A stretch of 64,000 nucleotides of DNA from a bacterium (GCA_015075175.1 JABTUV010000007.1:124001-188000); one strand, 5' to 3'. Shown: positions 14,841 to 34,414, numbered from the stretch's first letter. Notes: a model not told the origin generated them from the letters alone. Numbers and translations are program-made.

Positions 14841-16721
14841 ATGGAGTTCAAGCACACCGGCATGATCAAGTGTCCGCGCTGCGGGACGGAGAATCCCGTG
14901 GGTTCGACCAAGTGCGCCAGTTGCGAGCGCCTCTTGGTTTCCTCCGGCCCCATCAAGCTGCTCACGGACTACCGGCTGGCGCTGACGAGCTGGGCCATCG
15001 TTCTTTCCACCGTGGGCGTGTTCTTCTTTTTTGCGCTGGACAAGGCCACGCAGGAGCGGGGATTTGTGCGCGAGTGGATTCACTGGACGCGCCTGCCCTT
15101 TGACGTACTGGCCGACAGCCTGGGACAGCGCGAGTGGAAGGCGTACTGGTGGTTTGGCTCGATTGTCTTGTGGGCGATCATCGGCGCGCTGGTGGGCAGC
15201 GCGCTCAATCTCGAAAGAAGTAGTCGGTGTCAGTATTCCGGCGGCCGCTCCCTGTCGCCCTGCGCTATTTTCCAGGCGCTTGCGCTGGCCCTGTACGCGA
15301 TCTACGCGGCGGGCTTCCTGTATCGCGCGGGCGGGGCGTTGACGTATCCCTTGGGGCTGGATTTCGGCGAAGGGTTTCTCTTGGCGCAGGGTCTCGACCT
15401 GGCCGAGGGACGGCTGCCCTACCAGCCGCTCACGGCCGAGCGGATGGTGGTGGGCAACTACCCCTTGCTCTACCCTGCCCTGTCCAGCGTTTTTCTCCTG
15501 GCGGGAGGCTCGCCTTTTGCCGGGCCGCGGGCGGTCTCAATCGTCGCGACACTGGGGACGGCGCTTCTCGCGTACCTTTTTCTTGCGCGACGCGGCGTCC
15601 GCCCCTTGTGGAGCATCCTGGCGGCGCTCTTTTACTTATCCACCTTTCACGTGTTCGAGTGGGGCGTGTTGGCGCGCGTGGATGCCCTTGGTCTCTTCTT
15701 CTCCGCCCTGGGAATCTATCTTTTCGACCGCAACGGGCGGCTTTGGCCCGCGCTGGTGTGCTTCACGCTGGCCTTCAACACGCGCCAGACGCTTCTGGCC
15801 GGTCCGCTGGCGGTCGCCGTCTTCCTGTGGCGGCAAGAGGACCGCGCCGCCGCGTTGCGCTTCCTGGCCATGTTCTTGGGAGTGCAGGCCGCCATCATCG
15901 CGCTCCTGGCGGTACTCACGCACGGCGAGTACTGCCGGCATCTCTTTCTCTACAACATCAACCGGCTGGATTGGAAGGCGCCCGTGCTCTATGGGCAGCA
16001 CCTGGCGCGGATGTCGGGGGTGTGGATCGCGCTGGGGCTGGCGTTTCTGGCTTGGAGCCTGTCGCAGCGCCGCGTGGACCTGCTCGTGCCGCTCTTGGCG
16101 TTCTCGTTTCTTTCCAGCCTGACGTGCGCCAAGGTAGGCGCGGCGACCAATTACTTTCTGGAACTGCTCTGGGTCCTGTCGCTGGCCGGCGGTCAAACCC
16201 TGGACGAGTTGTCGCGCGAGTCGGAGAAGCGACCGATCCTCGCTCCGCTGCTCGCCGCGCTCGTGCTGGTGGGGGCATTGCAGTCCTTTCACGTGCCGGC
16301 CACGTCGTGGGATTATCTGCGCACGCCCGTCTTCAGCCGCGAGGATCGAGCCGCGACGGGGCGGTTCATCCACCTGATTCGGGAGGCGGACGCCTCGGGG
16401 CGGCGGGTACTCGCCTCGGACGCCAGCTTCCACCTCCTGGCGGGGGTGGCGCCGTTTTACCATCCGTTCATCATGACGGAGCTGGCGCGGGAGGGGCGAT
16501 TCGACGACGCGGAATTCTGGGCGCAGCTGCGCGACGGGCGGGTTTCCGCGGTGATTCTGGATTACGACCTGGCGCGGCCGGGCGCCTCCAGCATTCTCTT
16601 TTCCGACCAACTGAGGTTGCATCTGAACACGTCCTATCGCCTTACGGAGCAGTACGGACGCTTTCGCTTGTGGGAGCGGGCGGCGGCGGCAAGCAGCCGC
16701 AATCCCAACGCGGGGCCATGA
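14841..16721 (+). CDS. Zinc-ribbon / polytopic glycosyltransferase-like membrane protein (possibly two fused genes)
   Basis: The first ~30 residues contain a zinc ribbon, MIKCPRCGTENPVGSTKCAS, with CxxC...CxxC. This is followed by two membrane segments around residues 50-70 and 105-125. After a short polar stretch (LERSSRCQYSGGRS) a ten-or-so-helix membrane protein begins, with an early LDFGEGFLLAQGLDLAEGRL loop resembling the GT39/ArnT-PMT-type acidic loop of lipid-phospho-sugar-dependent glycosyltransferases. The ATG at 14841 has GGGAGG 7 bases upstream. The two parts may be independent genes joined by loss of a stop; the junction at about 15230 has no conserved sequence. The last residues (AAAASSRNPNAGP) are encoded by a palindromic repeat. 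The stop overlaps the recG ATG (ATGA). Confidence 0.65.
   Translation: MEFKHTGMIKCPRCGTENPVGSTKCASCERLLVSSGPIKLLTDYRLALTSWAIVLSTVGVFFFFALDKATQERGFVREWIHWTRLPFDVLADSLGQREWKAYWWFGSIVLWAIIGALVGSALNLERSSRCQYSGGRSLSPCAIFQALALALYAIYAAGFLYRAGGALTYPLGLDFGEGFLLAQGLDLAEGRLPYQPLTAERMVVGNYPLLYPALSSVFLLAGGSPFAGPRAVSIVATLGTALLAYLFLARRGVRPLWSILAALFYLSTFHVFEWGVLARVDALGLFFSALGIYLFDRNGRLWPALVCFTLAFNTRQTLLAGPLAVAVFLWRQEDRAAALRFLAMFLGVQAAIIALLAVLTHGEYCRHLFLYNINRLDWKAPVLYGQHLARMSGVWIALGLAFLAWSLSQRRVDLLVPLLAFSFLSSLTCAKVGAATNYFLELLWVLSLAGGQTLDELSRESEKRPILAPLLAALVLVGALQSFHVPATSWDYLRTPVFSREDRAATGRFIHLIREADASGRRVLASDASFHLLAGVAPFYHPFIMTELAREGRFDDAEFWAQLRDGRVSAVILDYDLARPGASSILFSDQLRLHLNTSYRLTEQYGRFRLWERAAAASSRNPNAGP
16679..16706. 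repeat. GCGGCGGCAAGCAGCCGC palindrome forming the end of the preceding gene
   Basis: A copy of the GCGGCRGCAAGCWGCCGC family lies in the final codons of the 14841-16721 gene, just ahead of recG. Confidence 0.7.
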
Positions 16722-18834
16722 CGTCGTCGCTTTTTTCGCCCGTCTCGCAGGTGCCGGGCGTGGGGCCGCGCCGCGCCGAGGTCCTGGAGCGACTCGGCAT
16801 CACCTCCATCTGGCGGCTGCTCTTCCACCTGCCGACGCGCTACGAAGACCTCGGCCATCCGACCCCCATCGCAGAACTCAGGCTGGGCGAGCCGACGACC
16901 GTGCGCGCCAAAGTGGTCAAGACCCTCGAACGGCGGCCGCGTGGGCGCAGCCACGTGCGCTCGCTGCTGACCGTGCGCGTCTGGGACGGCACGGCCGAAT
17001 TGCACCTCGTGTTCTTCAACCAGAAATACCTGAAGGAGGTGTTTCTGCCGGAGCGTGAGTTCTACGTCTATGGCCGTCCCGAGTTGTCCGGCCGCGTGCT
17101 GCAAATGGCCAGCCCGGATTACGAGCCGGTGGTGGCGGCGCTGGAGCACTCGCCGGTGCGCGCGGTCTATCCGCTCACGGAAGGCATCAGCCAGCGGGCG
17201 ATGCGCGCATTCATCGCCTCGGGCTTGGACTACTTCAACCGCTGGGGAGAAGAGACGCTGCCGGAGGCGGTGCTGGCCCAGCTCAAGTTCCCGCCGCTGG
17301 GCAAGGCGCTGGCCATGGTGCATACTCCCTATGCCTTCGCCAAGGCGCAGGGCCGCGCGGACGACTGGCGGCGTTACGCCGAACTGGGAAGAAAGCGGCT
17401 GGCTTTCGAGGAACTGCTGTATCTCCAACTCCAGGTGCAACGACGGCGGCGGCGGCTGACGGAGGTATGCATTGAACCCTATGGGCCGGAAGCCGATGCG
17501 CCCATGCCGTGGCTGCCCGGCGCGTTCATCCAGGGACTTCCCTTTGCGCTGACCAAGGCCCAGGAGCGCGCCGTCGTGGAGATCGCCGCCGACCTGCGCC
17601 GGCCCGTTCCCATGCACCGGCTGCTGGTCGGCGACGTGGGGAGCGGCAAGACCGTGGTGTTTCTTTACGCCCTCCTATACGCCATCGCCCACAACGACCA
17701 GGCGGCTCTGCTGGCGCCTACCGAGGTGCTGGCGGAGCAGCATTATCAGACCATCACGAAACTGCTCTCGCATCTGCCCGTGTCCGTGTCGCTCTTGACA
17801 GGCAGTACCGGGCGGCTGGAGCGCCAGGGCACGCTGTGGGACGTGGGCGCAGGACAGGCGCAGCTGACCGTGGGCACCCATGCGGTTCTGGAGGACGACC
17901 TGGAGTTCCGGCGGCTGCGCATGGTGGTCATCGACGAACAGCACAAGTTCGGGGTGCGGCAGCGGGCGCGCCTGGTGGAGAAGGGGCGCCATCCGCACCT
18001 CTTGGTCACCTCGGCGACACCGATTCCGCGCACGCTGGCGCTCACGCTCTACGGCGACCTGGACCTGACGGTGCTGGACGAAATGCCTCCGGGCCGGACG
18101 GCCGTGGAAACGCACTGGGTGGATGAGAGCCATCTGCGAGAGGTTTACGCCGACATCCGCCGGCGCGTGGCCGCCGGACAGCGCGCCTTCATCGTCTGTC
18201 CGCTGATCGAAGCGAGCGAGGCCCTGCCCGATCTTTCGCCGCTCTTGTCCGTTTACGAAGACCTGTCGAACCGCGTTTTACCGACGTGCCGGTCGCCTGT
18301 CTGCACGGAGGCATGAGCGGAGAGGAGAAGAAGGCCGTGATGGCGGGCTTTTCGGACGGGCGCACGCGCATCCTGGTCTCGACCACGGTCATCGAAGTCG
18401 GGGTCGACGTGCCCGAGGCGACGGTGATGGTGATTCTGTCCGCCGAGCGATTCGGGCTGTCGCAGTTGCATCAGTTGCGGGGGCGGATCGGGCGCGGGAC
18501 GACGCCGTCGGTGTGTTACGCCGTAGCCACGGGCGAGTTGTCGACGACGGCGCGCGAGCGGCTGGCGGCGTTCGCGTCAACCACGGACGGGTTCGCGCTG
18601 GCGGAGAAGGACCTGGCGATACGCGGGCCGGGGGAACTATTGGGCTTGCGGCAGAGCGGGGCGCTGGGTTTCTGCGCGGCGGACCTGGCGCGCGACCAGC
18701 CGCTCTTGGAGCGGGCGCAACAGGCGGCGCGCGCCTGGCTGGAAGGCGACCCGGAACTGGCCTCGCCCGAGAGCGCGCCGCTGGCGGCCATGCTCGCGCA
18801 CCTGGATCAAGAAGTTCCTCTCTCCGGCGCATGA
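16718..18834 (+). CDS. recG: ATP-dependent DNA helicase RecG, one frameshift
   Basis: RecG remodels stalled replication forks and branched DNA. The start MTSSLFSPVSQVPGVGPRR shows the helix-hairpin-helix-like wedge region (PGVGPRRAEVLERLGI). An OB-fold follows (TVRAKVVKTLERRP). Helicase motifs are I GDVGSGKT, Ia APTEVLAEQHY, the RecG-specific box II DEQHKFGVRQR, III TSATPIPRTL, and later STTVIEVGVDVPEAT and QLHQLRGRIGRG (motif VI). Near 18275 the run GTTTTACC must be one T longer to restore SNRVFTDVPVACLHGG, so a homopolymer indel splits the gene. The total of ~705 codons is normal. ATGA couples it to the gene upstream. Confidence 0.93.
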
Positions 18835-18973: not shown

Positions 18974-19003
18974 GAGAGCCCGGAACTTGCGTTCCGGGCT
19001 CTC
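18974..19003 (-). terminator. Rho-independent terminator of the beta-helix module (distal copy)
   Basis: The 13-base stem GAGAGCCCGGAAC...GTTCCGGGCTCTC has a 4-base loop and is followed on the minus strand by TTTCTGT. It lies 27 bases after the stop of the gene at 19030. The same stem terminates the paralogous module at 25186-25209. Confidence 0.75.
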
Positions 19004-19029: not shown

Positions 19030-21150
19030 TCAGCGATACAGTTCCCACGCCGCCTGTCGCACCGCCGCGCTGACAATGCCGCTGGGGTAGGCGCCCATGT
19101 CCCCGCCGCCGGGAATCAGCGACGCGCCCGTATGCACGCCCGCCGCCCCGATGGCCGGACTGGTCGGCTGCAGGTGGAAGTCCAGCCCGAAGAAGTCCAC
19201 GAACAACGGGTCCTGCCCCACGATGTCGCCGGGGAAGGTCGTCGGTCCGGGGAAACCGGAGAAGTTCTGCCCCCCCGAGAACGTGTTGTACGACAGGTTG
19301 TAACCGATGATCCCCACGGTCGTGGCGGCAAAGACGATGCCGCTGCCGGTGTGGTAGCCGACGATGTTGTTGTACACCGCCAGGTTGTCCACGCCGATGC
19401 GGATGCCGTTGGGGGAGTTGGCGACGACCGTGTTGTTGAAAACGCGGACGTTGGTGGCGCGCGTGGTCAGGGCAGGATCCACGTGGACGCCGTAACCGGC
19501 GCAGCCGGTCGTCAAGTTAAACGAGACGAAGGAATTGGACACGTCCGTATCCACCGCGTAGGGCGCCAGCCAGACGCCGCCGCGCAGGGGGGAGAGCGTG
19601 CCCAGGATCTCGTTGCCGCGGATGGTCGTGGGGCCGGCCGCGTGCACGCCCGCGCCGCACTGGATCATGTCGTTGTTGCGGACGATGGTACCCTGAGCGT
19701 TGGAGGTTTCGACCGAGACGCCGTACTGGCTGCAACCCTGAATCGAGTTGTTATCGATCAGGGCATTCTGCACAAAACCCGCCCCGCCCAAGGCGTTGGT
19801 GGTGAACTCGTAGCGCACGATCACGCCGCCGTAGGTGTTGCCGTCGACGGTGTTGCCCGTGACGACCGGGTTGACCAATCCGGTCAGGCGATCCCCCACC
19901 AAATTCCAGGGGGAGCCGCCGACCAAAACGCAGGCCTCGCGCCAGTGGTCGAAGTGGTTGTCGGAAATGATCGGCCCCGGGCCGTTGGCGCGCACGAAGA
20001 TGCCCCAGCCGCCGTGGGCTCCGCCGCGGTCGTCCCTGAAGGTGTTGTTGGAGAACAACACCTGCCGGCCGCCGGTGGGAACCAACGCCACGTTGTCGAA
20101 CATGATCGCTCCATCGGTGAACACGGAGGTTCCACGGCCCACGTTGTAGAACGTGTTGCCGCTGACCACAAAACCGTCCACCACCGAGGCGGCGATCGTC
20201 GGACCCGACCAGAAGTAGATAGCCTGATCCGCCGAGCCGGTGAAGTAGTTGTCCTCGATGCGCCAGTTGATGATGTTGTGGGGGTAGCCGACGCCGAGGG
20301 ATGCGGTAGCCGAGGTTCCCAGGAACTGGTTGTTGCGGATGAGCCAGTTGGCCTGGTTGTAGACGGGCGCCACGGCGGACTGGTTGGAGATGCCGATGTG
20401 CTCGCGCGGCGACCAGGCAAAAGTGCAGTTCTCGACCGTCAGGTTGGCGACGCCGGTCCAGAAGATCAGGTTGCCGCCCGCGGTGGAGGGGACGGCCGGA
20501 TTCATGCTGAAATAGCAGTTGCGGAAGGTCCAGTTGTTGCTGGGCGTCTGCTGGTCGTGGGTGCTGACGTTATAGGAACGCCCGGTGGTGGGAGCCGCCT
20601 GCGGGTTGTAGATGAAGCGGCAGGTGTCAAAGAGCACGTCGTTGGCCTGCTCGACGGTCACGCAGCCGTGGTTGCGCGTGCCGTCGGGATCGTTCTGGTT
20701 GAGCGGATTGCGCACGTCGCAGCCGACCATGGTGAAGCCGGACACGCCGGTACGCAGCTGGATGACGTTGATGTGGGTCTCGGCGTTGTTAATGTCGAGG
20801 TTCTCCAGCCGCACGTTGTCGGCGTTGTCGCCGAAGTCGAGCGAAATACGCCGCAGCACCGGCCGGGTGGGCGTCGTGCCGCGGATGGTGATGCCGGCGG
20901 TGAAGAAAACGTAGGTGGCGTTTTCGTCATAGGTGCCGGGTTGCACGTTGACCACGTCGCCGGGGGAAAGGCCGGCGAAACGCAAATGGCCGATGGTGGC
21001 CCAGGCGCCGGCGGGCGTGTTCGCGGTACCCGGATTGGCGTCGTTACCGTCGGTGCGAACGTAATACTCGACCGCCCCCGCCGACCCCACCAAGAGGACG
21101 AACAGGAGGGCCGTCGCCAACAGGCGTCGGAAGCCGCCCAGCGTGATCAT
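19030..21150 (-). CDS. Secreted right-handed beta-helix repeat protein, short type (copy 2)
   Basis: This exported protein has about 706 residues. The start is placed at the ATG at 21150, which has a GAGGAGG site. A signal peptide of about 26 residues follows (FRRLLATALLFVLLVGSAGA). The N-terminal YYVRTDGNDANPGTANTPAG with SPGDVVNVQPGTYDE is the DUF1565-like cap of pectate-lyase-fold proteins. The rest is Asn-rich beta-helix coils (NNxF, NCxF, ISxN patterns) closing with LDFHLQPTSPAIGAAG and GGDMGAYPSG. I see no catalytic motif or sorting domain; it could bind or cleave polysaccharide. The frame is intact. It is strongly similar over its length to 25243-27363. It follows 59 bases after the long-type gene at 21210-24694, probably co-transcribed. 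Confidence 0.8.
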   Translation of the reverse strand: MITLGGFRRLLATALLFVLLVGSAGAVEYYVRTDGNDANPGTANTPAGAWATIGHLRFAGLSPGDVVNVQPGTYDENATYVFFTAGITIRGTTPTRPVLRRISLDFGDNADNVRLENLDINNAETHINVIQLRTGVSGFTMVGCDVRNPLNQNDPDGTRNHGCVTVEQANDVLFDTCRFIYNPQAAPTTGRSYNVSTHDQQTPSNNWTFRNCYFSMNPAVPSTAGGNLIFWTGVANLTVENCTFAWSPREHIGISNQSAVAPVYNQANWLIRNNQFLGTSATASLGVGYPHNIINWRIEDNYFTGSADQAIYFWSGPTIAASVVDGFVVSGNTFYNVGRGTSVFTDGAIMFDNVALVPTGGRQVLFSNNTFRDDRGGAHGGWGIFVRANGPGPIISDNHFDHWREACVLVGGSPWNLVGDRLTGLVNPVVTGNTVDGNTYGGVIVRYEFTTNALGGAGFVQNALIDNNSIQGCSQYGVSVETSNAQGTIVRNNDMIQCGAGVHAAGPTTIRGNEILGTLSPLRGGVWLAPYAVDTDVSNSFVSFNLTTGCAGYGVHVDPALTTRATNVRVFNNTVVANSPNGIRIGVDNLAVYNNIVGYHTGSGIVFAATTVGIIGYNLSYNTFSGGQNFSGFPGPTTFPGDIVGQDPLFVDFFGLDFHLQPTSPAIGAAGVHTGASLIPGGGDMGAYPSGIVSAAVRQAAWELYR

Positions 21151-21209
21151 ATTGCCTCCTCGCATGATTTCTCTCCTCTCCATGAGCCTCGTCATCTCCT
21201 CCCTCGCAG

Positions 21210-24200
21210 TTAGAACCGCCGCCATGACGCCACCTCCGATGCTCCGGACTCGATGCAGCCCAGGTCGGTGTGTCCGTCGGCCACGAGACCATTGGTGGTC
21301 CCGCGGTCGCGGCAGGGACTCAGCGGCCCCAGGAAATAGAAGTCGGGATCGCCGGGTGTGCGCGAGGAGAAGCCCGGGTTGTACCAGATGTCCTTGCTGT
21401 AATCGATGGCGATGCCGTCGAACTGGTTGCCGCTGACCCGCGGCGCGCAGTTCCAGCCGGCGCGCAAGGCCGACAGCCCGCTCGGCAGCACCCGGAAGTT
21501 GGTCACCGTGTTGAAGAAGAAGATGTTGTTCTGGATGCGGTTGGAGAAGCCGCGGAACTCGGTTCCCACCGCCCAGTCGGTCACGGTGTTGTTCAGGTAG
21601 GTGTTGGTGTTGGGTCCCGGATCGTTGGTGATGGCGGGATTACGCGCCTCCCAGAGGCCGCTGCCGCTGGGGATGCTGCTGCCGTAGATGGCGTTGCGGA
21701 TGATGGTGTTGCTCTTGTTGCTGGCCTGACCGGCGGTGCGCAGGATGCCGTTGCGCACGCGGATGCCCTCGCCGTTGCGCAAGAGCGTGTTGTAGCCGAT
21801 GGTGTGGGTCTGACCCTCGACCACGACGCCGGTACCGGCGCAATCGGTGATCGTGTTGGAGACGCACTGCACCAGACTGGCGACGGGCCGCAGCGTCGAT
21901 TCGTCCAGGAGATTGACGCCGTGTCCGCCCGCGCCGGTGATGGTGCAGTCGCGGATGGTGTGGCTGTTGCCGTTCACCCGCACCCCGTCGCCGCCGAAGC
22001 CGGAGATGATGCTGTTGCGGATGGTGAGCGTGGAGACGTGCTTGGAGGAGGGCGTAGTGGCCAGGCTGTCGTCCACGAAGATGCCGTGGGAGGAACCGGC
22101 CGCGCCGGTCAAGGTCAGGTTCTCGAAGGTGCTGGTCTTCAGCGCGTTGCGGATGTGCAGGCCGATGCCGGAAAGGTTGGTGAAGCTGCAGCCGCGCATC
22201 AGCCAGTTGGCGGACTCGAAGTTGAGCGAGGTCGCCAGATACGCGCCCTGCGCCGCGCCGCCCCCGTCGTAACTGACGTTGATGAACTTGAACCCGTTGC
22301 CGTTCACGTCGGCGTAGATGCCCACGGCCGGACTGCCCTGGATGGCCACATTGTGGAAGACCGCGTTGCTGCCCTCCAGATAGTGCAGGGAAATCCCGCG
22401 GTCGCTGGCCGACAGCATGGTGCAATCCTTGACCAGCACGTTGGTGACGATGGGGAAGTCCGCCGGGCCGTTCTGAATCTGCCAGCGCTGCCAGGCCAGG
22501 GCCGTGTTCTTGCCCGAGAAGGTGCAGTTGGTGAAGCCCGCGTTGGAGATGGTGGTACCCTGGTCCTCCATCAGGAAGCCGGCGGTGCGCTTCTCCAGCG
22601 TGTCGTCCGTGGTCGAGCGACAGGTGAACTGGCAGTTCTCGAAGGTGGCGTTGGTGATGATCGAGGTCTGCTCCAGGAAGAAGCCGGCGGACTGGGTTCC
22701 CGTCGGCGCGCCCGTAAACGAGCAGTTGGTGAAGCGCACATTGTCCCAGAGACTGTTGGCCTCGATGTCCACGCCGTTGAGGGTGGCGCTGGTGAAGTGG
22801 CAATCGTCGAAGGTCCAGTTGCGCTGCACGCTCTGACCCTGGCAGTGGATGCCCTCAAGGTCCACGTTGGCGACCACGTTGCTGACCTTGATGTTGCGCT
22901 TTCGTCACCCGACAGGAAGTTGCCGTTGATGTACCATCCCTTGGTACCGGTGATGTTGACGTTGGTGATGGTGGCGCCGTCGACGAGGATGCCGGCGTCG
23001 CGGAAGCTGATGCCGGAGCAGTAGGCGAAGCCGCCCCAGTCGATGCCGTAGGTGACGCCGCCCGCGCCCAGGCCGGTGAAATCGTTGGTGTAAGTGGAGT
23101 TTCGCAGGGTGCAGTCGGCGATGGTGAGGTCCTTGACCTGGGGCCGGTAGCCGCCCCACTCCTGGAAGAGGACGCACGCCGCCCCGCCGCCGATCAGGCT
23201 GTTGCGAATCGTGATGTGCTCGGCGGTGGAACCGAGGAGGAAGAAGGAGCAGCTGTTGGCCTCCAGCCGGCTGTCCTCCACGACCCAGTTCTGCAACATG
23301 CTGCCGCCCGTCGGGAAGACGCACAGATTGTGGTATCCGAAGGTGTGGCGCATGTCGCAGCGCCTCATGGTCAACCCGTTGATGTTGACCTGCACGCCGC
23401 CCAGCGTGAATCCATAGCCTCCGGTGCGCACGTAGTCCTTGTAGGAGCAGTCCTCCATCACCCAGTTGGTGATGTTGACGATGTTGTCGGTAAAGTTGGT
23501 GTTGATCCAGTTGGAGCGGCAGTAGGCGTGCACGCGCCGGAAGATGTAGTTGGTGACGTCTCCGAAGAAGATCTGCAGGAAGTTGCCGCCCGTCACGTTG
23601 CAGTCGCGCATCTCGAAATTGGTCACGTAGGCCCGCAACGGCGTCAGGCTCTGCCGGAAGGTCACAATGTAGTCGCCCGCGTCGCCGATCATCGGATGGA
23701 TGACCCTGACCCGCTCCAGCAGAATGTTGGCGGCGGTGGCTCCGCAGATGGAGAAACCGTCGATGCCGTTGGTCTGGCCGAAGGTCATGGTGCAGTCGCG
23801 CACGGTGATGTTGGAGGCCAGCGACTCGTAGATGCGGATCACCGCGTGGGTGCTGTTGAGTCCCTCGCACTCGAACAGCACGCAGTTCTGAATCAAGAGC
23901 CCGTCGCTGTTCCCGGAGGCGTGCGGGCTTCCGCTCGTTGACAGGTCGATGGCGTTCAGCAGCGTGTTGTTGATGGTGGTGTTGAGAATCTGGGTGTTGT
24001 TGCTGGCGCGAAGGAACTTGATGCCGCCGCTGTTGGAGGCGGCGTTGATGGTGCAGTTGGACACGGTCAGGTCGCCCGCCGGTCCGGCCGCGCTGGGCAT
24101 CAGGATGGCCTGATCCCAGACGTTGCCGCCGTTGTTGAAGGTGCAGCCGGTGATGGAGCAGTTGGGCGCCGCCATGACTTGCACCGGGGCCACGTCCTCC

Positions 24201-24694
24201 GGCTCCTCGACCTCGCCGCGGTCCGGATTGAAGTGCTCGGCGATCTGCTCCACCACGCCCGTGAATTGGCAGTTCTGGATCGTGCAGTTGGCCGCCGAGG
24301 ACAGGACGACGATGCACGCCTCGTGCTGCGACTGCGCGTCGAAACCGATGTTCCTGACCTGCGTGTAGGCGCCCTGGACGCGGAGGACCGACTGATTGAG
24401 GGTGACGGTACCGCCCTCGCCCTGGATGATCACGGCGTTGGCGGCGGTTCCCACGGGTGTGACGTTGAAGACGCCGTTCTGGGTGTAGGTTCCGGCCGCG
24501 ATGTGCAGAGTGGTCGGGGCCGCCTGCGTGTTCAGGACCCCGAGGGCCGCGCCCAACGTGAGCTTGGGCATGCCCGCCGAGAGTCCGTCGTTGGCGTCAT
24601 TGCCCGTGGTGGACAGGTAAACGTCGGCGAACGCTCCCCCGCCCACCAGACCAACGATGACCGCGACGAGTAAAATGAATCTTTGTGTGGTCAT
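21210..24694 (-). CDS. Secreted right-handed beta-helix repeat protein, long type (copy 2), one frameshift
   Basis: This exported protein has about 1160 residues. The start ATG at 24694 follows GGGAGG, and the signal peptide is about MTTQRFILLVAVIVGLVGGG to AFA. The cap reads DVYLSTTGNDANDGLSAG with TLHIAAGTYTQNGVF. Long runs of beta-helix coils with NCTF/NCQF steps follow. The frame breaks near 22895 after FLSGDES; the adjacent frame continues SNVVANVDLEGIHCQGQ to the end SGASEVASWRRF, so one base is missing. It is paralogous to 27406-30882 throughout. The last ~85 bases before and including the stop are identical in both copies, while the rest is only similar. No catalytic residues were recognised. 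Confidence 0.8.
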
Positions 24695-25185
24695 AAACCT
24701 CCCTCCCGATGAATGTTTAGAAGACCCCGACGGGGTCGATCTTCCCCTGTGCTGGTCGTGCACGGGCGCATGCGTGGCATGGCATCACCGAAACATAAAT
24801 GTGAAGTCAAGAAAATGTTATCGAACGGATCCGCGGGGCAACCTCCTGCAAACCAAACGCCACGCCCAGGCACACTCCATACTTCTTGACGCATTTTACG
24901 GATATGCGTCCCTATTGGTCACGGATTATTGGAGTGTGAGCGGCAATTGTCAATCGGCTCACAAGCGGGTTGAGGGGTGGTCCAGACCAATGCAAGGAAC
25001 TTAACTATCTTAGTTTAAAGAGCTTAAAAAAAGCAACGACAGGTAGGAGCGCTCCCACCAACTGGGTCACGTGGGGACGCTGTTGGGACGGGTTCGCGGC
25101 GGCAGGCGAGGAGGGGTACGGTGCTGAAGCGTGTCGGCAAGATGCCGACACGCAAGCCGGCAAGATGCCGGCGTTACAAGAAGAA
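24695..25185. other. Gene-free region between the two beta-helix modules
   Basis: No gene was recognised in this ~490-base stretch. It is less GC-rich than its surroundings in its central part (around 24900-25040, with a short A-run). Near 25131-25174 it holds the double hairpin that also occurs after copy 2. It should contain the promoter of the downstream minus-strand module, but no convincing -35/-10 pair stood out. Confidence 0.5.
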
Positions 25186-25209
25186 AGCCCGGAACTTGCG
25201 TTCCGGGCT
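25186..25209 (-). terminator. Rho-independent terminator of the beta-helix module (proximal copy)
   Basis: The stem AGCCCGGAAC...GTTCCGGGCT has a TTGC loop and is followed on the minus strand by TTCTTCTTG. It is placed 34 bases after the stop at 25243 and matches the terminator at 18974-19003 base for base in the stem core. Confidence 0.75.
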
Positions 25210-25242
25210 CCCTAGCGTCCACGCCGTCCGTCAAGCGTTAAG

Positions 25243-27363
25243 TCAGCGATAGAGTTCCCAGGCCGCCTGTCGCACCGCCGCGCTGACGATGCCGCTGGGA
25301 TAGGCGCCCATGTCCCCGCCGCCGGGGATGAGGGTGGAGCCGACCGCCAACCCCGCCGACCCGATGGCCGGACTGTTGGCCTGCAAGTGGAAGTCCAGCG
25401 CGAAGAAGTCCACGAACAGCGGATCCTGCTCCACGATGTCGCCGGGGAAGTTGGTAGGTCCCGGGAATCCGGAGAAGTTCTGGCCTCCGCTGAAGACGTT
25501 GTAGGACAGGTTGTAACCCATCAGTCCCACCGTGGTGGCCGAGAAGACCATGCCGGCGCCGGTATGCAGGGCCACGATGTTGTTATACACCGCCAGGTTG
25601 TCGACGCCGATGAGGAGACCGTCGTTCTGGTTGCCCACGATGGTGTTGTTGAAGACCTTGACGTTCTGGCCGCGCGTGCCCAGCGTGGGCTGGACGCGCA
25701 CGCCGTAGCCGGAGCAGCCGGTCGTCAGGTTGAACGAAACGACCGAGTTGGAGACGTCCGAGTCCACGGCGAAGGGCGTCAACCAGATGCCGGCGCGGGC
25801 CGCGTTGAGCGTGCCGATGATCTCGTTGCCGCGCACCGCGGCCGAACCGGCGATCTGAATGCCCGCGCCGCACTGCGTGACGTCGTTGAACCGGATGGTG
25901 GTATTGAGCGCGTTGGAAGTCTCGACCGAGATGCCGTACTGGTTGGCGCTGTCGATGTTGTTGTTGTCGATGAGCGCATTCTGCACGATGCCCGGCCCGT
26001 CAACGGCGACCTCGTAGCGCACGACCACGCCGGCGTAAACGTTACCCATGACGGTGTTGCCGACCACGGCGGGATCCACCAGACCCTGGGCGCGGTCGCC
26101 GACGCCGTTCCAAGGCGAGCCGGAAACCAGGATGCAGGCTTCGCGGATGTGGTCGAAGGTGTTGTCGTTGACGACCGGCCCGACGCCGTTGCCGTGCACG
26201 TAGACGCCCCAGCCGCCGTGCGAGCCGCCGCGGGTGTCGCGGAAGGTATTGTTGGAGATCTCCGTGCGCCGGCCGCCCGTGGGCGCGAACAGCACGTTGT
26301 CCAGAATGATGACGCCGTCCGTCAGCACGCTGGTGCCCTTGGCCACGTCCTCGAACTCATTGCCCGTGACCACGAACCCGTCCAGCTTGGTGGACAGCGT
26401 CACCGGCGCGCCCGGCGAGTAGACCCGGATGCCCGCGTCCGCCGAACCGGTGAAATAGTTGTCCTGAATCAGCCAGTTGGTCAGATTGTGGGCCGTGCCC
26501 ACGCTGATGTTGTTCACGTTGCTCGTGCCCAGGAAGCGGCAGCCGCGGATGGTCCAGTTGGTCATGTTGAAGATGGTGGCGTTGGTCGCGATCACGATGT
26601 TCTCCCGGGGCGACCAAGCGAACACGCAGTCCTCCACGGTGACGTTGGTGACCTCCGTCCACAAGACCATGTTGCCGCCCGCCGTCGAGGCGATGATCGG
26701 ATTCATGTTCATGGTGGTGTTGCGGATGGTCCAGTTGTTGGAGGGAGGGAAGGTCTCGACCGTCCCCAGGCAGTACATGCGTCCCACCGTGGGCGAGGCG
26801 GGAGTGGAAATCAACCGGCAGGTATCCACGAGCAGCCCGTCGACGGACTCGATGATGAGGCAGCCGTGGCTGCGGGCGGGATCGGGATCGGCCTGGTTGA
26901 GGGGATTGCGCAGATCGCAGCCGACGATCTGCAGGTTCTGGACGCCCTGACGGACTTCGATCACGTTGAGATGGGTTTCGGCGTTGTTGAAGTCCAGGTT
27001 CTCCAGCCGCAGGTTGTCGGCGTTGTCGTTGATGTCCAGCGAAATGCGCCGCAGTACCGGCCGGGTAGGCGTGGAACCGACGATGGTGATGCCGCCGGCG
27101 AAGAGCGCATACTGGGCGTTTTCGTCATAGGTGCCCGCCTCGACGTGCACCACGTCGCCGGGGTTGAGGCCGGCGAAGCGAATGTGGCCGATGGTGGCCC
27201 AGGCGCCGGCGGGCGTGTTCGCGGTACCCGGATTGGCGTCGTTGCCGTCGGTGCGAATGTAATAGTCCACCGCCGCGGCCGACCCGACCGCCAGCGCGAA
27301 CAAGACGGCCAGCGCCAGCCAGCGCCGATGGCTTCCTGTGGTTTTCATCGTCGTTTCTTTCAT
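25243..27363 (-). CDS. Secreted right-handed beta-helix repeat protein, short type (copy 1)
   Basis: This exported protein has 706 residues with an intact frame. The start MKETTMKTTGSHRR is followed by a hydrophobic signal segment, LALAVLFALAVGSAAA; an alternative ATG lies 15 bases downstream. The cap YYIRTDGNDANPGTANTPAG and LNPGDVVHVEAGTYDE matches DUF1565-type pectate-lyase-fold proteins. The body is Asn-rich coils, and the end GGDMGAYPSGIVSAAVRQAAW is identical to copy 2. The role is unknown; a carbohydrate-active or adhesive surface protein is plausible. It follows the long-type gene by 42 bases. Confidence 0.8.
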   Translation of the reverse strand: MKETTMKTTGSHRRWLALAVLFALAVGSAAAVDYYIRTDGNDANPGTANTPAGAWATIGHIRFAGLNPGDVVHVEAGTYDENAQYALFAGGITIVGSTPTRPVLRRISLDINDNADNLRLENLDFNNAETHLNVIEVRQGVQNLQIVGCDLRNPLNQADPDPARSHGCLIIESVDGLLVDTCRLISTPASPTVGRMYCLGTVETFPPSNNWTIRNTTMNMNPIIASTAGGNMVLWTEVTNVTVEDCVFAWSPRENIVIATNATIFNMTNWTIRGCRFLGTSNVNNISVGTAHNLTNWLIQDNYFTGSADAGIRVYSPGAPVTLSTKLDGFVVTGNEFEDVAKGTSVLTDGVIILDNVLFAPTGGRRTEISNNTFRDTRGGSHGGWGVYVHGNGVGPVVNDNTFDHIREACILVSGSPWNGVGDRAQGLVDPAVVGNTVMGNVYAGVVVRYEVAVDGPGIVQNALIDNNNIDSANQYGISVETSNALNTTIRFNDVTQCGAGIQIAGSAAVRGNEIIGTLNAARAGIWLTPFAVDSDVSNSVVSFNLTTGCSGYGVRVQPTLGTRGQNVKVFNNTIVGNQNDGLLIGVDNLAVYNNIVALHTGAGMVFSATTVGLMGYNLSYNVFSGGQNFSGFPGPTNFPGDIVEQDPLFVDFFALDFHLQANSPAIGSAGLAVGSTLIPGGGDMGAYPSGIVSAAVRQAAWELYR

Positions 27364-27405
27364 GGTCTTTCTCTGTCGCGGCTCTCGCTGCCGTCTGCAT
27401 CCCGT

Positions 27406-30400
27406 TTAGAACCGCCGCCATGACGCCACCTCCGATGCTCCGGACTCGATGCAGCCCAGGTCGGTGTGTCCGTCGGCCACGAGACCATTGTAGTTCCATG
27501 GTCGCGGCAGGGACCAGCGGCCCCAGGAAATAGAAGTCGGGATCGCCGGGTGCGCGAGGAGAAGCCTGGTTGTACCAGATGTCCTTGCTGTAGTCGATGG
27601 CGATGCCGTCGAACTGGTTGCCGCTGACCCGCGGCGCGGTTCCAGCCGGCCCGCAAGCCGACAGCCCGCTCGGCAGCACCGGAAGTTGGTCACCGTGTTG
27701 AAGAAGAAGATGTTGTTCTGGATGCGGTTGTTGAAGCCCCGGAACTCCGTCCCCACGTCCCAATCGGTTACCGTGTTGTTCAAATAGGTGTTCGTGTTGG
27801 GACCGGGATCGTTGGTGAGGGCGGTGTTGATCGCCTCCCAGAGGCCGGTACCGCTGGGGATGCTGCTGCCGAAGACGGCGTTGCGGATGATGGTGTTGTT
27901 CTTGGTACTGGTCTGTCCGGCGGTGCGAATCACGCCGGAGCGCACGCGGATGCCCTGGCCGTTGCGCAGGAGCGTGTTGTAGCCGATGGTGTGGGTCTGG
28001 CCCTCGACCACGACGCCGGTACCGGCGCAGTCGGCGATGGTGTTGGTGACGCATTGCACCGAGGCGGCGACGGGCCGCAGCGCGGAGTCGTCCAGGATGT
28101 TGACGCCGTGGCCGCCCGCGTTGGTGAGGGTGCAGTCGCGGACGATGTGCGAGGTTCCCTGCAGGCGCAGCGCGTCGCCGCCGAAGCCGGAGACGACCGA
28201 GTTCAGGAACGAGAGCGTATTGGCCTGCTTGGCGCCGGGCGCCGTGGCCCCGCTGTTGTCCACGAAGATGCCGTGGGACGAGCCCGCCGCGCCGGTCAAC
28301 GTCAGGTCCCGGAAGGTGCTGTTCTTGATGGCCGCCTTCACCTGCAGGCCGATGCCGTCAAGGTTGGCGAAGCTGCAGCCCTGCATCAGCCAGTTGGCCG
28401 ACTCGAAGTTGAGGGTGCTGGCCAGAAAGGCGCCCCGTCCGGCGCCGCCGCCGTTCCCGGTCACGTTCACGAACCGCCAGCCGTTGCCGTTGATCTCGGC
28501 GTGGATGCCGATGCCGGGATTGCCCAGAATGGCGATGTTCTGGAAGAGCACGTTGGAGCCCTCAAGATACTGGAGGGAGATGGCCCGGTCGGTAGCCGAA
28601 ACCATGGTACAATCCTTGACCAGCACGTTGTTGACGATCGGCTCCAAGCCGGCGCCGTTCTGAATCTGGTAGCGCTGCCAGGCCAGCGCCGTGTTCCGGC
28701 CCGAGAAGGTACAGTTATGGAATCCCGCGTTGGACAAGGTGGTGTTCTCGTCCTCGATGAGGAAGCCCGCGGTGCGCTTCTGCAACTGATCGTCGGAGGT
28801 GGAGGGACAGGTGAACGAGCAGCCGCTGAAGGTCGCGTTGTTGATCAACGAACCCACCTCCAGGAAAAAGCCGGCCGACTGCGTGCCCTCCCCGCCGGTG
28901 AAGGAGCAGTTCTGGAAGTTCACGTTGTCCCACGAGCTGGCGCCGTCGGCGTCAAAACCGTGGCGCGTCAGGCTGGTGAAGCTGCAGTTGGTGAAGGTGA
29001 AGTTGCTCTGCGGACTGGACAGGGTCGCCCCCGGACCCGTGCGCGAGAGCACGCCTTCCGTGGTCGTGTTGCTGACCACGTTGTTGACGGTAAAATTGGT
29101 CTTCAAGCCGTCCCCGGTGAACGCGATGCCGCGATAACCGCCCATGAGGGTGTCGGTGATGGTGGCGCCGTCGATCTTGATGCCGTTGTTGCGCACCGAG
29201 AAGCAGCCGACGAACTCCTCCGTGGTGCTGAAGAAGTCGATGCCGTTGAACTCTTGCGTCAGGGTGGAGTTGCGCAAGACGCTGTTGGCCACGGTGAAGT
29301 CCCGGACCAGCGGCGGGAAGCTGGCCTGCAACTGGAAGAGGATGGCCGCCAGGCCGCCGCCGATGGTGCTGTTACGGATGTCCACGTGCGTGTTGGTGGC
29401 GCCCAGAACGAAGAAGGCGACGCTGTTGGCCTCCAGCCGCGTGTTGTTGAGGCGGATGTTGTTGATGATGCTGTTGGGCGAGAAGAAGCACAGGCAGTGG
29501 TAGCCGCGGGTCATGCGGAAATCGCAGTTGTTCATGATGAAACCATCGATCTCCAGGCCTGTGCCGCCCAGCGTGAAAGCATACGCGCCGGAGCGCACGA
29601 TGTCCTTGAACGTGCAGTTGGTCATCACCCAGTTGGTGATGAGGACGGGGTTGGTTCCCAGGTTGGTGTTGACCCAGAACCGGCCCGTGGAGGTGACGTT
29701 GGTCCAGCGGAAGCCGTTGATGACGGCGTAAAAGATCTGCTGGAAGTTCCCGCCCCGCACGGTGGAATCCTTCCACTCGAAATTGGTGAGATAAGCCACC
29801 TGCTGGGTCAAAACGCCGCGCCGCACCGCGAAGATGTATTCGCCGGCGCTGCCGGTGAACACGTGATTGACGTTGACTTGGTCGAGCAGCACGTTACTGG
29901 CGGTGCAGCCGCCGATCACGATGCCGCTGATGCCGTTGGTCTGGCCGAAGGTGAGCGTCACCCTCCGCAACGTCACGTTGGAAACCAGCGATTCCTCCAG
30001 CCACACCAGCGCCTCGGTGGTGAACTGATCCGCAAAAGCAAAGGCGGAGCCCTCGTTGATGACGCAGTCCTGAATCAGGAGCTGGTCGCTGTTGCCCGAG
30101 GCCACGCCGCTGCCGCCGGAGTGCAGTTGAAAGGCGGTGTGGGCGATGTTGTTGAAATTGGTGTTGAGGATCTGGGTGTTGTTGGTGGCGCGCAGGAACT
30201 TGATGCCGCCGGTGTTGGAGGCGCCGTTGATGGTGCAACCCGAGACCGTCAGGTTGCCCGCCGGCCCGACCGCGCTGGGCAGCAGGATGGCGTAGTCCCA
30301 GGTTTCCGGCAGAAGCCCGCAGTTGAAGGTGCAGCCGGTGATGGTGCAGTCCGGGGCGGCCATGACTTGCACCGGGGCCACGTCCTCCGGCTCGTTGCCT

Positions 30401-30882
30401 TCAGTCGAGTCGGAGTTGAAGTGCTCGGCCGGCTGCTCCTTGACGCCGGTGAAGGTGCAGTTGGAGAGCGTGCAGTTGCCGGCCGTGCTGCGCACCACCA
30501 CGCAGGCCTCGTGCATCCCCTGCTGGTTGAAGCCGATGTTTTGCACCCGCGTATAGGCGCCCTGGATGACCAGGACCGACTGGTTGAGGGTGGCCGTGCC
30601 GCCCTCGCCGGCGATGGTGACCAGGTTGCCCGCGGTTCCCACGGGCGTGACGTTGAAGACGCCGTTCTGGGTGTAGGTTCCGGCCGCGATGTGCAGCGTG
30701 GTCGGGGCCGTCTGCGTGTTCAGGACCCCGATGGCCGCGCCCAGCGTGAGCTTGGGCGTGCCCGCCGAGAGTCCGTCGTTGGCGTCATTGCCCGCCGTGG
30801 ATAGGTAGACGTCCGCAAACGCCCCCGTACCCGACAACAGGGCAATGACCGCCGCCAGCAAAATGATACGTTTCGTAATCAT
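27406..30882 (-). CDS. Secreted right-handed beta-helix repeat protein, long type (copy 1), small frameshifts
   Basis: This exported protein has about 1158 residues. The start ATG at 30882 has a GGGAGG site; upstream in-frame codons lack one. The signal peptide is MITKRIILLAAVIALL to GAFA. The cap DVYLSTAGNDANDGLSAG is followed by coils throughout. Near the end, VTNFRCCRAGCRLAGRL replaces copy 2's VTNFRVLPSGLSALRAG because CACCCGG in copy 2 is CACCGG here. A second indel restores the frame before NGLVADGHTDLGCIES. Comparison of the paralogues therefore pinpoints single-base losses in G/C runs. It is probably the first gene of the module. Confidence 0.8.
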   Translation of the reverse strand: MITKRIILLAAVIALLSGTGAFADVYLSTAGNDANDGLSAGTPKLTLGAAIGVLNTQTAPTTLHIAAGTYTQNGVFNVTPVGTAGNLVTIAGEGGTATLNQSVLVIQGAYTRVQNIGFNQQGMHEACVVVRSTAGNCTLSNCTFTGVKEQPAEHFNSDSTEGNEPEDVAPVQVMAAPDCTITGCTFNCGLLPETWDYAILLPSAVGPAGNLTVSGCTINGASNTGGIKFLRATNNTQILNTNFNNIAHTAFQLHSGGSGVASGNSDQLLIQDCVINEGSAFAFADQFTTEALVWLEESLVSNVTLRRVTLTFGQTNGISGIVIGGCTASNVLLDQVNVNHVFTGSAGEYIFAVRRGVLTQQVAYLTNFEWKDSTVRGGNFQQIFYAVINGFRWTNVTSTGRFWVNTNLGTNPVLITNWVMTNCTFKDIVRSGAYAFTLGGTGLEIDGFIMNNCDFRMTRGYHCLCFFSPNSIINNIRLNNTRLEANSVAFFVLGATNTHVDIRNSTIGGGLAAILFQLQASFPPLVRDFTVANSVLRNSTLTQEFNGIDFFSTTEEFVGCFSVRNNGIKIDGATITDTLMGGYRGIAFTGDGLKTNFTVNNVVSNTTTEGVLSRTGPGATLSSPQSNFTFTNCSFTSLTRHGFDADGASSWDNVNFQNCSFTGGEGTQSAGFFLEVGSLINNATFSGCSFTCPSTSDDQLQKRTAGFLIEDENTTLSNAGFHNCTFSGRNTALAWQRYQIQNGAGLEPIVNNVLVKDCTMVSATDRAISLQYLEGSNVLFQNIAILGNPGIGIHAEINGNGWRFVNVTGNGGGAGRGAFLASTLNFESANWLMQGCSFANLDGIGLQVKAAIKNSTFRDLTLTGAAGSSHGIFVDNSGATAPGAKQANTLSFLNSVVSGFGGDALRLQGTSHIVRDCTLTNAGGHGVNILDDSALRPVAASVQCVTNTIADCAGTGVVVEGQTHTIGYNTLLRNGQGIRVRSGVIRTAGQTSTKNNTIIRNAVFGSSIPSGTGLWEAINTALTNDPGPNTNTYLNNTVTDWDVGTEFRGFNNRIQNNIFFFNTVTNFRCCRAGCRLAGRLEPRRGSAATSSTASPSTTARTSGTTRLLLAHPAIPTSISWGRWSLPRPWNYNGLVADGHTDLGCIESGASEVASWRRF

Positions 30883-33195: not shown

Positions 33196-33295
33196 GGCTT
33201 CCGCTCCGGGGAAGAATGGGCGAAACGCCCATTCTTGCCTGCATAATCGTAATTCGTAATCGTGATCGTGCTCGTAATCGATTCTCGATTGGCAG

Positions 33296-33370
33296 CAAGA
33301 TTAAGAGCAAGAGCAAGAGCAAGAGCAAGAGCAAGAGCAAGATTAAGATTAAGATTAAGATTAAGATAAG
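33296..33370. repeat. Hexanucleotide tract AAGAGC/AAGATT, block 1
   Basis: A run of AAGAGC units passes into AAGATT units on the plus strand. It lies between the URO-D gene and the araF-like gene. Just before it (33243-33290), CGTAATCGTGATCGTGCTCG resembles the inverted repeat at 46780-46829. Related tracts lie at 44924-45130 and 45295-45432. Confidence 0.9.
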
Positions 33371-33379
33371 GATACATTG

Positions 33380-34414
33380 TTACAGACCCAGCGACTGCAT
33401 TTTTTCCCTGTAATTCTCGCGGGTGATGATCTCGCCCGCGGTCAGGGTGACCTTGGGAGGCTCCTGCCCATCCTTCACCCACTTGTAGAGGAGCTCGAGG
33501 GCCTCGTAGCCGTGCCGGCGGGCGTTGATGAGACAGGTGGCGCAGAAGCCGCTGGGCTGCGGCTTCTGAAACTCGGGCAGCGCGGAGGAGCCGCCGATGC
33601 CGACGCCGATGATGGTGTCGGCGTTAAAACCGCGGTTTTCCATCGCCCGGACCGCGCCCAGGACGCCCTCGTCGTTGATGGAGACGGCGATCCAGCGCTT
33701 GACCTCCGGGTGCTGGGTGAGGAGCACGTGGGCGGCGTCAAAGGCGCCCGGGGTGTCGGTGGTCTTTTCGGGCATGCGATAGATTTGAGCGGCGGGAAAG
33801 CCGGCCTGGACCAGGACGTCGACCGCGCCGTCGGTGCGCTGCTTGACCGTGTCCAGTTCGTCGAAGGTAATCACGCACACGCCGGTCTCGGCGACGGGCC
33901 AGCCGCGCCGCTGCATCTCGGCCCAGGCCGCCGCGCCGACGGTTTCGCCGATCGCCCGCGCGGAAATCCCCATGTAGGGTACGTCCATGAACTGCCCGTC
34001 GCTGCCTACCAAGCGGTCGTCGACGGTGAAGACCTTCATGCCGTAGCCGGCCGCTTTCGCCATGATAGCGGGTCCCAGTTTCACGTCGGGGGTGCAAATG
34101 ACAAAGCCCCTGGCGCCTTGGGCCGCCAGATTGTCGATGCTGGTGAGGACCTTCTCGCCGTCTACCGCGCCGATCTTGACCAGCCGGATGCCGGCCTTGT
34201 CGGCGAACTCTTGCGCGTACTTCCATTCGTCCTGAAACCAGGGCTCCTCGGGGCGCTTGACGAGAAAGCCGAGCACGAGCGGGTCGCCGGAGGTCTCAGG
34301 CGAGGCGGAAGATACGCCCGCAGGCGGCGGCGCCGGGCTTCCACCGCATCCAAGGGAGGCAAGCACGACAACCAGGCCCGCAAGAAGGATCAACGGCGTG
34401 GCGGGAGACTTCAT
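33380..34414 (-). CDS. Periplasmic sugar-binding lipoprotein, AraF (L-arabinose-binding)-like
   Basis: This is an ABC-transporter substrate-binding protein of about 344 residues with a lipoprotein signal ending LVVVLASLGCGG (lipobox LASLGC), so it should be anchored to a membrane facing the periplasm. The mature part follows E. coli AraF almost motif for motif: LGFLVKRPEEPWFQDEWKYA, NLAAQGARGFVICTPDVKLG, YGMKVFTVDD, ELDTVKQRTDGAVD, IPGAFDAA-like TPGAFDAAH, and PPKVTLTAGEIITRENYREK. Binding of L-arabinose or a related monosaccharide is inferred from that similarity. No ATPase or permease gene is adjacent, so it is an orphan here. The start is the ATG at 34414; the frame is intact. Confidence 0.85.
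   Translation of the reverse strand: MKSPATPLILLAGLVVVLASLGCGGSPAPPPAGVSSASPETSGDPLVLGFLVKRPEEPWFQDEWKYAQEFADKAGIRLVKIGAVDGEKVLTSIDNLAAQGARGFVICTPDVKLGPAIMAKAAGYGMKVFTVDDRLVGSDGQFMDVPYMGISARAIGETVGAAAWAEMQRRGWPVAETGVCVITFDELDTVKQRTDGAVDVLVQAGFPAAQIYRMPEKTTDTPGAFDAAHVLLTQHPEVKRWIAVSINDEGVLGAVRAMENRGFNADTIIGVGIGGSSALPEFQKPQPSGFCATCLINARRHGYEALELLYKWVKDGQEPPKVTLTAGEIITRENYREKMQSLGL

Follow-up and report, generated by a model that had tools for sequence, protein, structure and literature searches.

Paired beta-helix proteins with two conserved C-terminal tails point to a candidate sorting signal in a bacterial class

A tandem pair of beta-helix genes

The subject of this analysis is a duplicated two-gene module encoding large beta-helix proteins, located at positions 19,030 to 30,882 of a 64,000-nucleotide stretch of bacterial DNA (GCA_015075175.1, JABTUV010000007.1:124001-188000; hereafter the window). 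The window lies on contig C47 of an assembly (G000) of 4.98 Mb in 49 contigs, which is 84% complete. On the minus strand the genes follow the order long-short-long-short (long B, short B, long A, and short A), with spacers of 42 and 59 bases between each long gene and its short partner. A preliminary description of this DNA had proposed a duplication of approximately 6 kb on the basis of this order, the single strand, the 706-residue shorts, the spacers, and matching terminators. Our reading of the sequence bears it out on each point: the two copies align at 74.5% DNA identity over 5,748 columns (approximately 5.7 kb), the short A and short B proteins are 67% identical, and both short genes are followed by nearly the same hairpin. 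The description had also reported two long proteins of 1158 and 1160 residues, which stands only for the length of long B as read, whereas long A occupies two frames and a stretch of long B near its C-terminus is out of frame relative to its relatives. The features are listed below, where form 1 and form 2 denote two kinds of C-terminal tail.

27406..30882, minus strand: long B, beta-helix protein, 1158 residues as read, ending ...SEVASWRRF
27409..27432, minus strand: form-1 tail of long B, EVASWRRF-COOH
25243..27363, minus strand: short B, beta-helix protein, 706 residues, ending ...VRQAAWELYR
25246..25269, minus strand: form-2 tail of short B, QAAWELYR-COOH
about 25180-25210, minus strand: hairpin 3' of short B, near-identical to that of short A, read from the sequence
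24925..24953, minus strand: promoter-like site 5' of long A, TTGACA-17-AATAAT, a consensus match only
22571..24694, minus strand: N-terminal part of long A, beta-helix protein, with a frameshift near 22.9 kb
21210..22904 (start approximate), minus strand: C-terminal part of long A in another frame, ending ...SEVASWRRF
21213..21236, minus strand: form-1 tail of long A, EVASWRRF-COOH
19030..21150, minus strand: short A, beta-helix protein, 706 residues, no lysine, ending ...VRQAAWELYR
19033..19056, minus strand: form-2 tail of short A, QAAWELYR-COOH
18974..19003, minus strand: terminator-like hairpin GAGAGCCCGGAACGCAAGTTCCGGGCTCTC 3' of short A, 13 pairs

That these are beta-helix proteins, as first described, was confirmed by Pfam. 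Matches to PF13229 (Beta_helix) reached 77.4 and 62.1 bits for the two shorts and 88 bits for the C-terminal part of long A, against a cut-off of 25.9, with E-values down to 1e-25, and asparagine ladders are present. A model of short B built from five paralogs (mean predicted local distance difference test score, pLDDT, 76) forms a right-handed beta-helix over approximately residues 70-610, with low confidence in the last 80 residues. The short protein is accordingly modelled as a right-handed beta-helix, in agreement with Pfam, and the long protein is a predicted beta-helix according to the Pfam match on copy A.

Two-gene modules across the genome and the class

We compared the window genome, which is the only one of its family in the genome set used, with 13 further genomes of the same class. 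The window genome contains 14 two-gene beta-helix modules, five of them window-like and nine of two other kinds. Further units of the window type, with the long gene before the short, lie at C1:188.8-194.8 kb, C12:285-290 kb, and C12:325-330.4 kb. Short proteins of the window-type units are 67, 49, and 32-35% identical, with 45% between both C12 units, and long proteins are about 58-66% identical between copies A and B and 36, 31, and 44% for the others. Long and short identities rank alike across the units, as expected under duplication of whole units. The second kind of module has the short gene before the long one and other N-terminal caps, and was found at C6 (two in tandem), C5, C4, C7, C49, and C1:842-851 kb (two in tandem); one more two-gene module lies at C1:821-824 kb. 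Tandem arrays occur at three module sites. A giant beta-helix gene read in several frames (L038 3211-10329), with the form-1 tail GVENWRQF, lies directly 5' of the C1 module.

No full-length relatives of the window pair were found in the 13 other class genomes, nor in a broader genome contig collection searched with single proteins and with alignments, where nearly all matches were limited to the N-terminal cap and spread over many phyla. The caps GNDANDG and TDGNDANPGT, which had been put forward as markers of the pair, proved non-specific when searched, and the short cap also occurs in Planctomycetota, Paenibacillus, Alphaproteobacteria, and others. Phage records gave no match, so that kinship with phage tailspikes was rejected at the sequence level. 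The duplication is an ordinary lineage-specific expansion. The earlier proposal that long and short proteins are conserved as a pair is strongly supported, both by the five and nine modules and by C-termini specific to each role.

Two C-terminal tails on unrelated exported proteins

All intact short proteins sampled, in every module type, end in W-x-x-Y-R-COOH (form 2), and all intact long proteins sampled, likewise in every module type, end in [VI]xxWR-x-[FYW]-COOH (form 1). This split between roles holds across module types differing in caps and gene order. Frameshifts interrupt the reading of two members: at C1:849-852 kb the second short, and at C4 the long, for which another frame gives the ending GEWRLY. 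An alignment of 14 divergent short-type C-termini has ten invariant columns, three of which correspond to the W, Y, and R within the final five positions.

Genome-wide counts of the tails come from DNA-pattern searches with sampled context. W-x-[LIVMF]-Y-R-stop occurs at 14 places in the window genome, mostly at the ends of module-type genes, and at more in the 13 other genomes, where 17 distinct open frames of at least 200 amino acids end in this way against an expectation by composition of less than one. Most of these 17 frames have signal-like N-termini, and the form-2 carriers include CHRD/Temptin, FG-GAP with ASPIC, GH39, beta-lactamase-like, YWTD repeat, SnoaL, DUF5689, and beta-helix proteins. 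For form 1, at least 15 large frames of G004, one of the 13 other class genomes, end in W-x-[LV]-Y-stop, and those with a recognised domain carry LTD, Lcl_C, FG-GAP, CBM9, LamG, or CotH. The residue three positions before the tryptophan (W-3) lay outside every search pattern and so provides an independent test of the motif. V or I was found there in 20 of 21 large frames from the other class genomes compared with none of 16 short chance frames. For the window genome the figures were 12 of 12 module-type proteins sampled and 12 of 14 frames overall (the other two being a prepilin and an unlikely frame), compared with 1 of 15 short frames. Form 2 has no V/I preference at this position.

Neither form of the tail ended any of 752 open frames of at least 200 amino acids in 763 kb from other phyla, or any of 811 open frames in non-module loci of the window genome. 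An NCBIfam search recovered no named sorting domain in the module proteins or in the tail carriers, and no hydrophobic stretch lies within 60 residues of the C-terminus in the module proteins. The preliminary description had recognised neither a catalytic signature nor a sorting domain in these proteins; the former statement holds, with no catalytic site or enzyme family found, whereas the latter has to be revised in view of the conserved tails. A model of the C-terminal fragment was too weak for use (pLDDT 53). The literature searches made here returned no description of such a tail, and the tails, which are the unexpected part of the system, are undescribed as far as these searches reach.

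Looser tails were also observed, namely VPARAWEALR (L154 7294-9278, overlapping a prepilin gene), VPAGVWNLLR (L039 1-2256), and VPRRGWEEYR (L046 8039-9826); judging from these sequences, form 2 probably extends beyond W-x-x-Y-R. Further exported proteins of the window genome have a dockerin-like single repeat (D-x-N/D-x-D...DLL) at the C-terminus and no W tail, so that at least two kinds of C-terminus coexist in this genome.

L138 9533-10705, L141 5432-7546, L144 7512-9263, L152 1490-3616, and L153 1836-4391: dockerin-like C-termini

A candidate sorting signal and its possible reader

Because the tail is short, exactly C-terminal, conserved at W, L/V, and Y (and R), and present on unrelated exported proteins, an address would be the simplest account of it. 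Across dozens of such proteins class-wide, the tails look like an undescribed export or sorting signal. We propose that the genes of a unit give rise to a pair of different right-handed beta-helix proteins, produced together and exported by Sec, the long partner carrying form 1, in its wider version [VI]-x-x-W-x-[LV]-[YF]-COOH (W-R-x-[FYW] in the window genome), and the short partner carrying form 2. After Sec export, an export machine of the outer membrane would recognise the free C-terminal peptide in the periplasm. Both partners would then be released to or displayed on the surface, where they may form an extended, probably carbohydrate-facing, two-protein structure. We consider this reading, of paired Sec-exported beta-helices with a two-form, class-wide C-terminal sorting signal recognised by an outer-membrane machine, to be moderately probable. 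In it we infer that the tail is a sorting signal, that components of a type II secretion system (T2SS) or pilins read it, and that the partners assemble together.

The leading candidate machine would be one of the T2SS/type IV pilus family with greatly expanded GspG-like prepilins, a reader suggested by the link of tails to prepilins. GspG-like prepilins, called by TIGR02532 above its cut-off with TIGR01710 and other pilin models below theirs, are present in 30-149 copies per genome across the class. A prepilin lies within about 200 bp of six of the 14 modules (C1, both C12, C5, C4, and C7), and the C5 module has a second, split prepilin as well. Among the other genomes, where prepilins starting at most 300 bp downstream were counted, six of the 17 form-2 genes are followed on the same strand by a prepilin that starts after 8-177 bp, compared with none of 37 controls (17 short chance hits and 20 pattern hits lacking a stop, zero in each; Fisher p = 5e-4). 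Form-1 genes with a prepilin downstream were found at L225, L286, and L312, and at L279 a WNLYE end stands beside a prepilin. Away from the modules, the two forms also occur on adjacent genes, at L196 and L222. The window genome also has a T2SS locus on C6, comprising a secretin (PF00263), an ATPase (T2SSE, PF00437), and pseudopilins, with a prepilin of the GspG-like family just upstream of the ATPase gene. Module proteins have signal-like N-terminal sequences and, with a T2SS encoded in the same genome, show at the sequence level the features expected of Sec-exported T2SS substrates. A more specific version is possible, though tentative: a two-form address code, [VI]xxWx[LV][YF]-COOH and WxxYR-COOH, would send folded exported proteins of the class to a T2SS/type IV pilin machine via the lineage-expanded prepilins, with two receptors splitting the partners of a heteromeric surface structure.

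The expanded prepilins share the end YDPSNGxxSxGDIxRxGP, and many adjoin sugar-metabolism genes. There are two separate T2SS-like gene clusters in the assembly (G000 C6:1291-16000 and C1:1106000-1118000).

Several observations weigh against tail-directed export through such a machine. The window modules themselves have no adjacent prepilin, as is the case for 11 of the 17 form-2 genes, and most prepilins have no tail-bearing neighbour, few of their neighbours carrying tails. Because each genome has 30 or more of them, prepilins probably serve many purposes. The DUF5689-type loci L194, L212, and L214 look orthologous, and the six adjacent cases represent four protein families. Signal peptides were called by a crude script and were missing or unclear in some incomplete frames, the tail region of the short B model has low confidence, and the argument for tail-directed transport is one from sequence. 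A prepilin as an obligate third gene of the module was rejected, as the window modules lack one and the majority of prepilins are located away from modules.

Known secretion and sorting systems offer partial parallels. Tripartite C-terminal signals such as LPXTG, PEP-CTERM, and GlyGly-CTERM combine a motif, a transmembrane helix, and a basic cluster (PMC3237569). Like the tails described here, they are short C-terminal regions common to otherwise unrelated exported proteins, in a many-to-one relation with a presumed machine, but the present tails have neither transmembrane helix nor basic cluster, their motif occupies the extreme C-terminus, and no NCBIfam model matches; the module proteins therefore fall outside these families. 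The C-terminal domain of type IX secretion system (T9SS) substrates is similarly placed on diverse secreted proteins, although it is a domain, whereas the tails span 5-9 residues. The T9SS translocon SprA (TIGR04189) was above cut-off in none of the 14 genomes, the window genome being 84% complete, and a T9SS reading is unsupported with SprA not found.

TcpF and CofJ are secreted by way of a short, flexible, aromatic peptide at their N-terminus, which hooks onto a minor pilin of their own system that has a lectin-like domain (PMC9565799). The likeness to this Type IVb pilus signal lies in a short flexible terminal peptide with key aromatics; there the pilin is encoded nearby, whereas here GspG-like prepilins adjoin only a subset of carriers, and the conserved peptide is C-terminal and not N-terminal. 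TcpF/CofJ is the closest precedent that has been worked out. Substrates of the T2SS share no common sequence signal according to reviews (PMC10128026). The module proteins resemble them in being apparently Sec-exported and in coming from a genome that encodes a T2SS locus and numerous GspG-like prepilins, but differ in having a clear tail.

Alternative explanations

The tails might instead be assembly peptides, the two forms marking the two partners. A heteromeric fibre would then be built by docking of one partner's free C-terminus onto the other partner or a common scaffold, and sorting would be achieved by something else. Forms 1 and 2 are strictly split between the partners of sampled intact modules, and the two forms occur on neighbouring genes at L196 (EWALY and WTLYR, with a prepilin) and at L222 (GWSLY, on a CotH protein, beside WRMYR), which speaks for this account. 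However, both forms are found on unrelated folds, usually without a tail-bearing partner adjacent, and we regard this explanation as unlikely. The heteromeric surface fibre suggested in the preliminary description is still a possible product of the module, the pairing itself being the part that is supported.

The same description had offered a two-step polysaccharide system, and a lyase, epimerase, or hydrolase pair that degrades or modifies polysaccharides would fit the nearest solved folds to the short B model. These are mannuronan C5-epimerase A-modules, tailspikes, NosD, AlgG, and PL6 alginate lyases (Z 26-32, identity 10-16%; viral models were also compared). Any right-handed beta-helix would nevertheless retrieve those same folds, and the fold neighbours identify a predicted beta-helix, not a function. 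PL6 polysaccharide lyases need a catalytic lysine (with arginine), and DPH is the catalytic motif of mannuronan C5-epimerases (AlgE/AlgG). The 706 residues of short A contain zero lysines, no lysine is invariant among the five shorts aligned, and the DPH motif is absent from all module proteins tested, short or long, so that the lyase and epimerase readings lack the residues they need. The module proteins matched no enzyme family in Pfam or NCBIfam, showed no consistent set of GH28-like motifs, and yielded no catalytic site. They share fold and asparagine ladders with the beta-helix superfamily (PF13229; PL6, AlgE/AlgG, tailspikes, and NosD) but differ in their 10-16% identity, lack of known catalytic residues, paired genes, and C-terminal tails. 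A catalytic role was rejected for the missing residues, and an enzyme pair appears quite improbable.

Recognition of the tail by periplasmic quality control, through PDZ-type reading of C-termini and not by an export machine, would account for a motif sitting exactly at the C-terminus and, in form 1, ending in a free aromatic residue like the C-termini of outer-membrane proteins, which DegS-type PDZ domains read. The carriers, however, are soluble-type domains and not beta-barrels, and form 2 ends in arginine, which makes this account very unlikely.

It is also doubtful, to a similar degree, that the expansion is largely decaying and that many copies are pseudogenes, as the broken frames of long A, long B, and the long genes at C1 and C4 could imply. 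Equal breaks split recG (window 16670-18834) and, in a neighbouring 20 kb, atpA (L044 2507-3575), and for this reason sequencing or assembly indels are likelier than gene decay as the source of the breaks in the long genes; the pattern suggests indel errors across the whole assembly. The ratio of nonsynonymous to synonymous substitution rates between the copies (Nei-Gojobori) is below 1, at 0.44 for the short gene and 0.58-0.68 for the long gene, which is compatible with both copies being functional, and the C-terminal tails are kept. An intergenic run of short degenerate repeats (TAATCTTAATCTTGCTCTTGCTC...) lies at positions 33260-33380 of the window.

Finally, although many tail carriers in the window genome are beta-helices, the idea that the tail is merely an ending passed down within a single family of beta-helix domains can be set aside with near certainty, as CHRD, CotH, FG-GAP, GH39, CBM9, LamG, beta-lactamase-like, and YWTD proteins carry the same tails.

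Implications

The basis on which T2SS-like machines select cargo is still open (PMC10128026). A tail defined by individual residues, sometimes with a prepilin directly downstream, makes cargo recognition directly testable, and, if the proposed role is true, substrates of a T2SS-like machine would for the first time be seen to have a linear secretion signal in common. The tail may also serve as an export tag of 5-9 residues. For an almost uncultivated lineage, the tails offer a practical means of listing the surface proteome.

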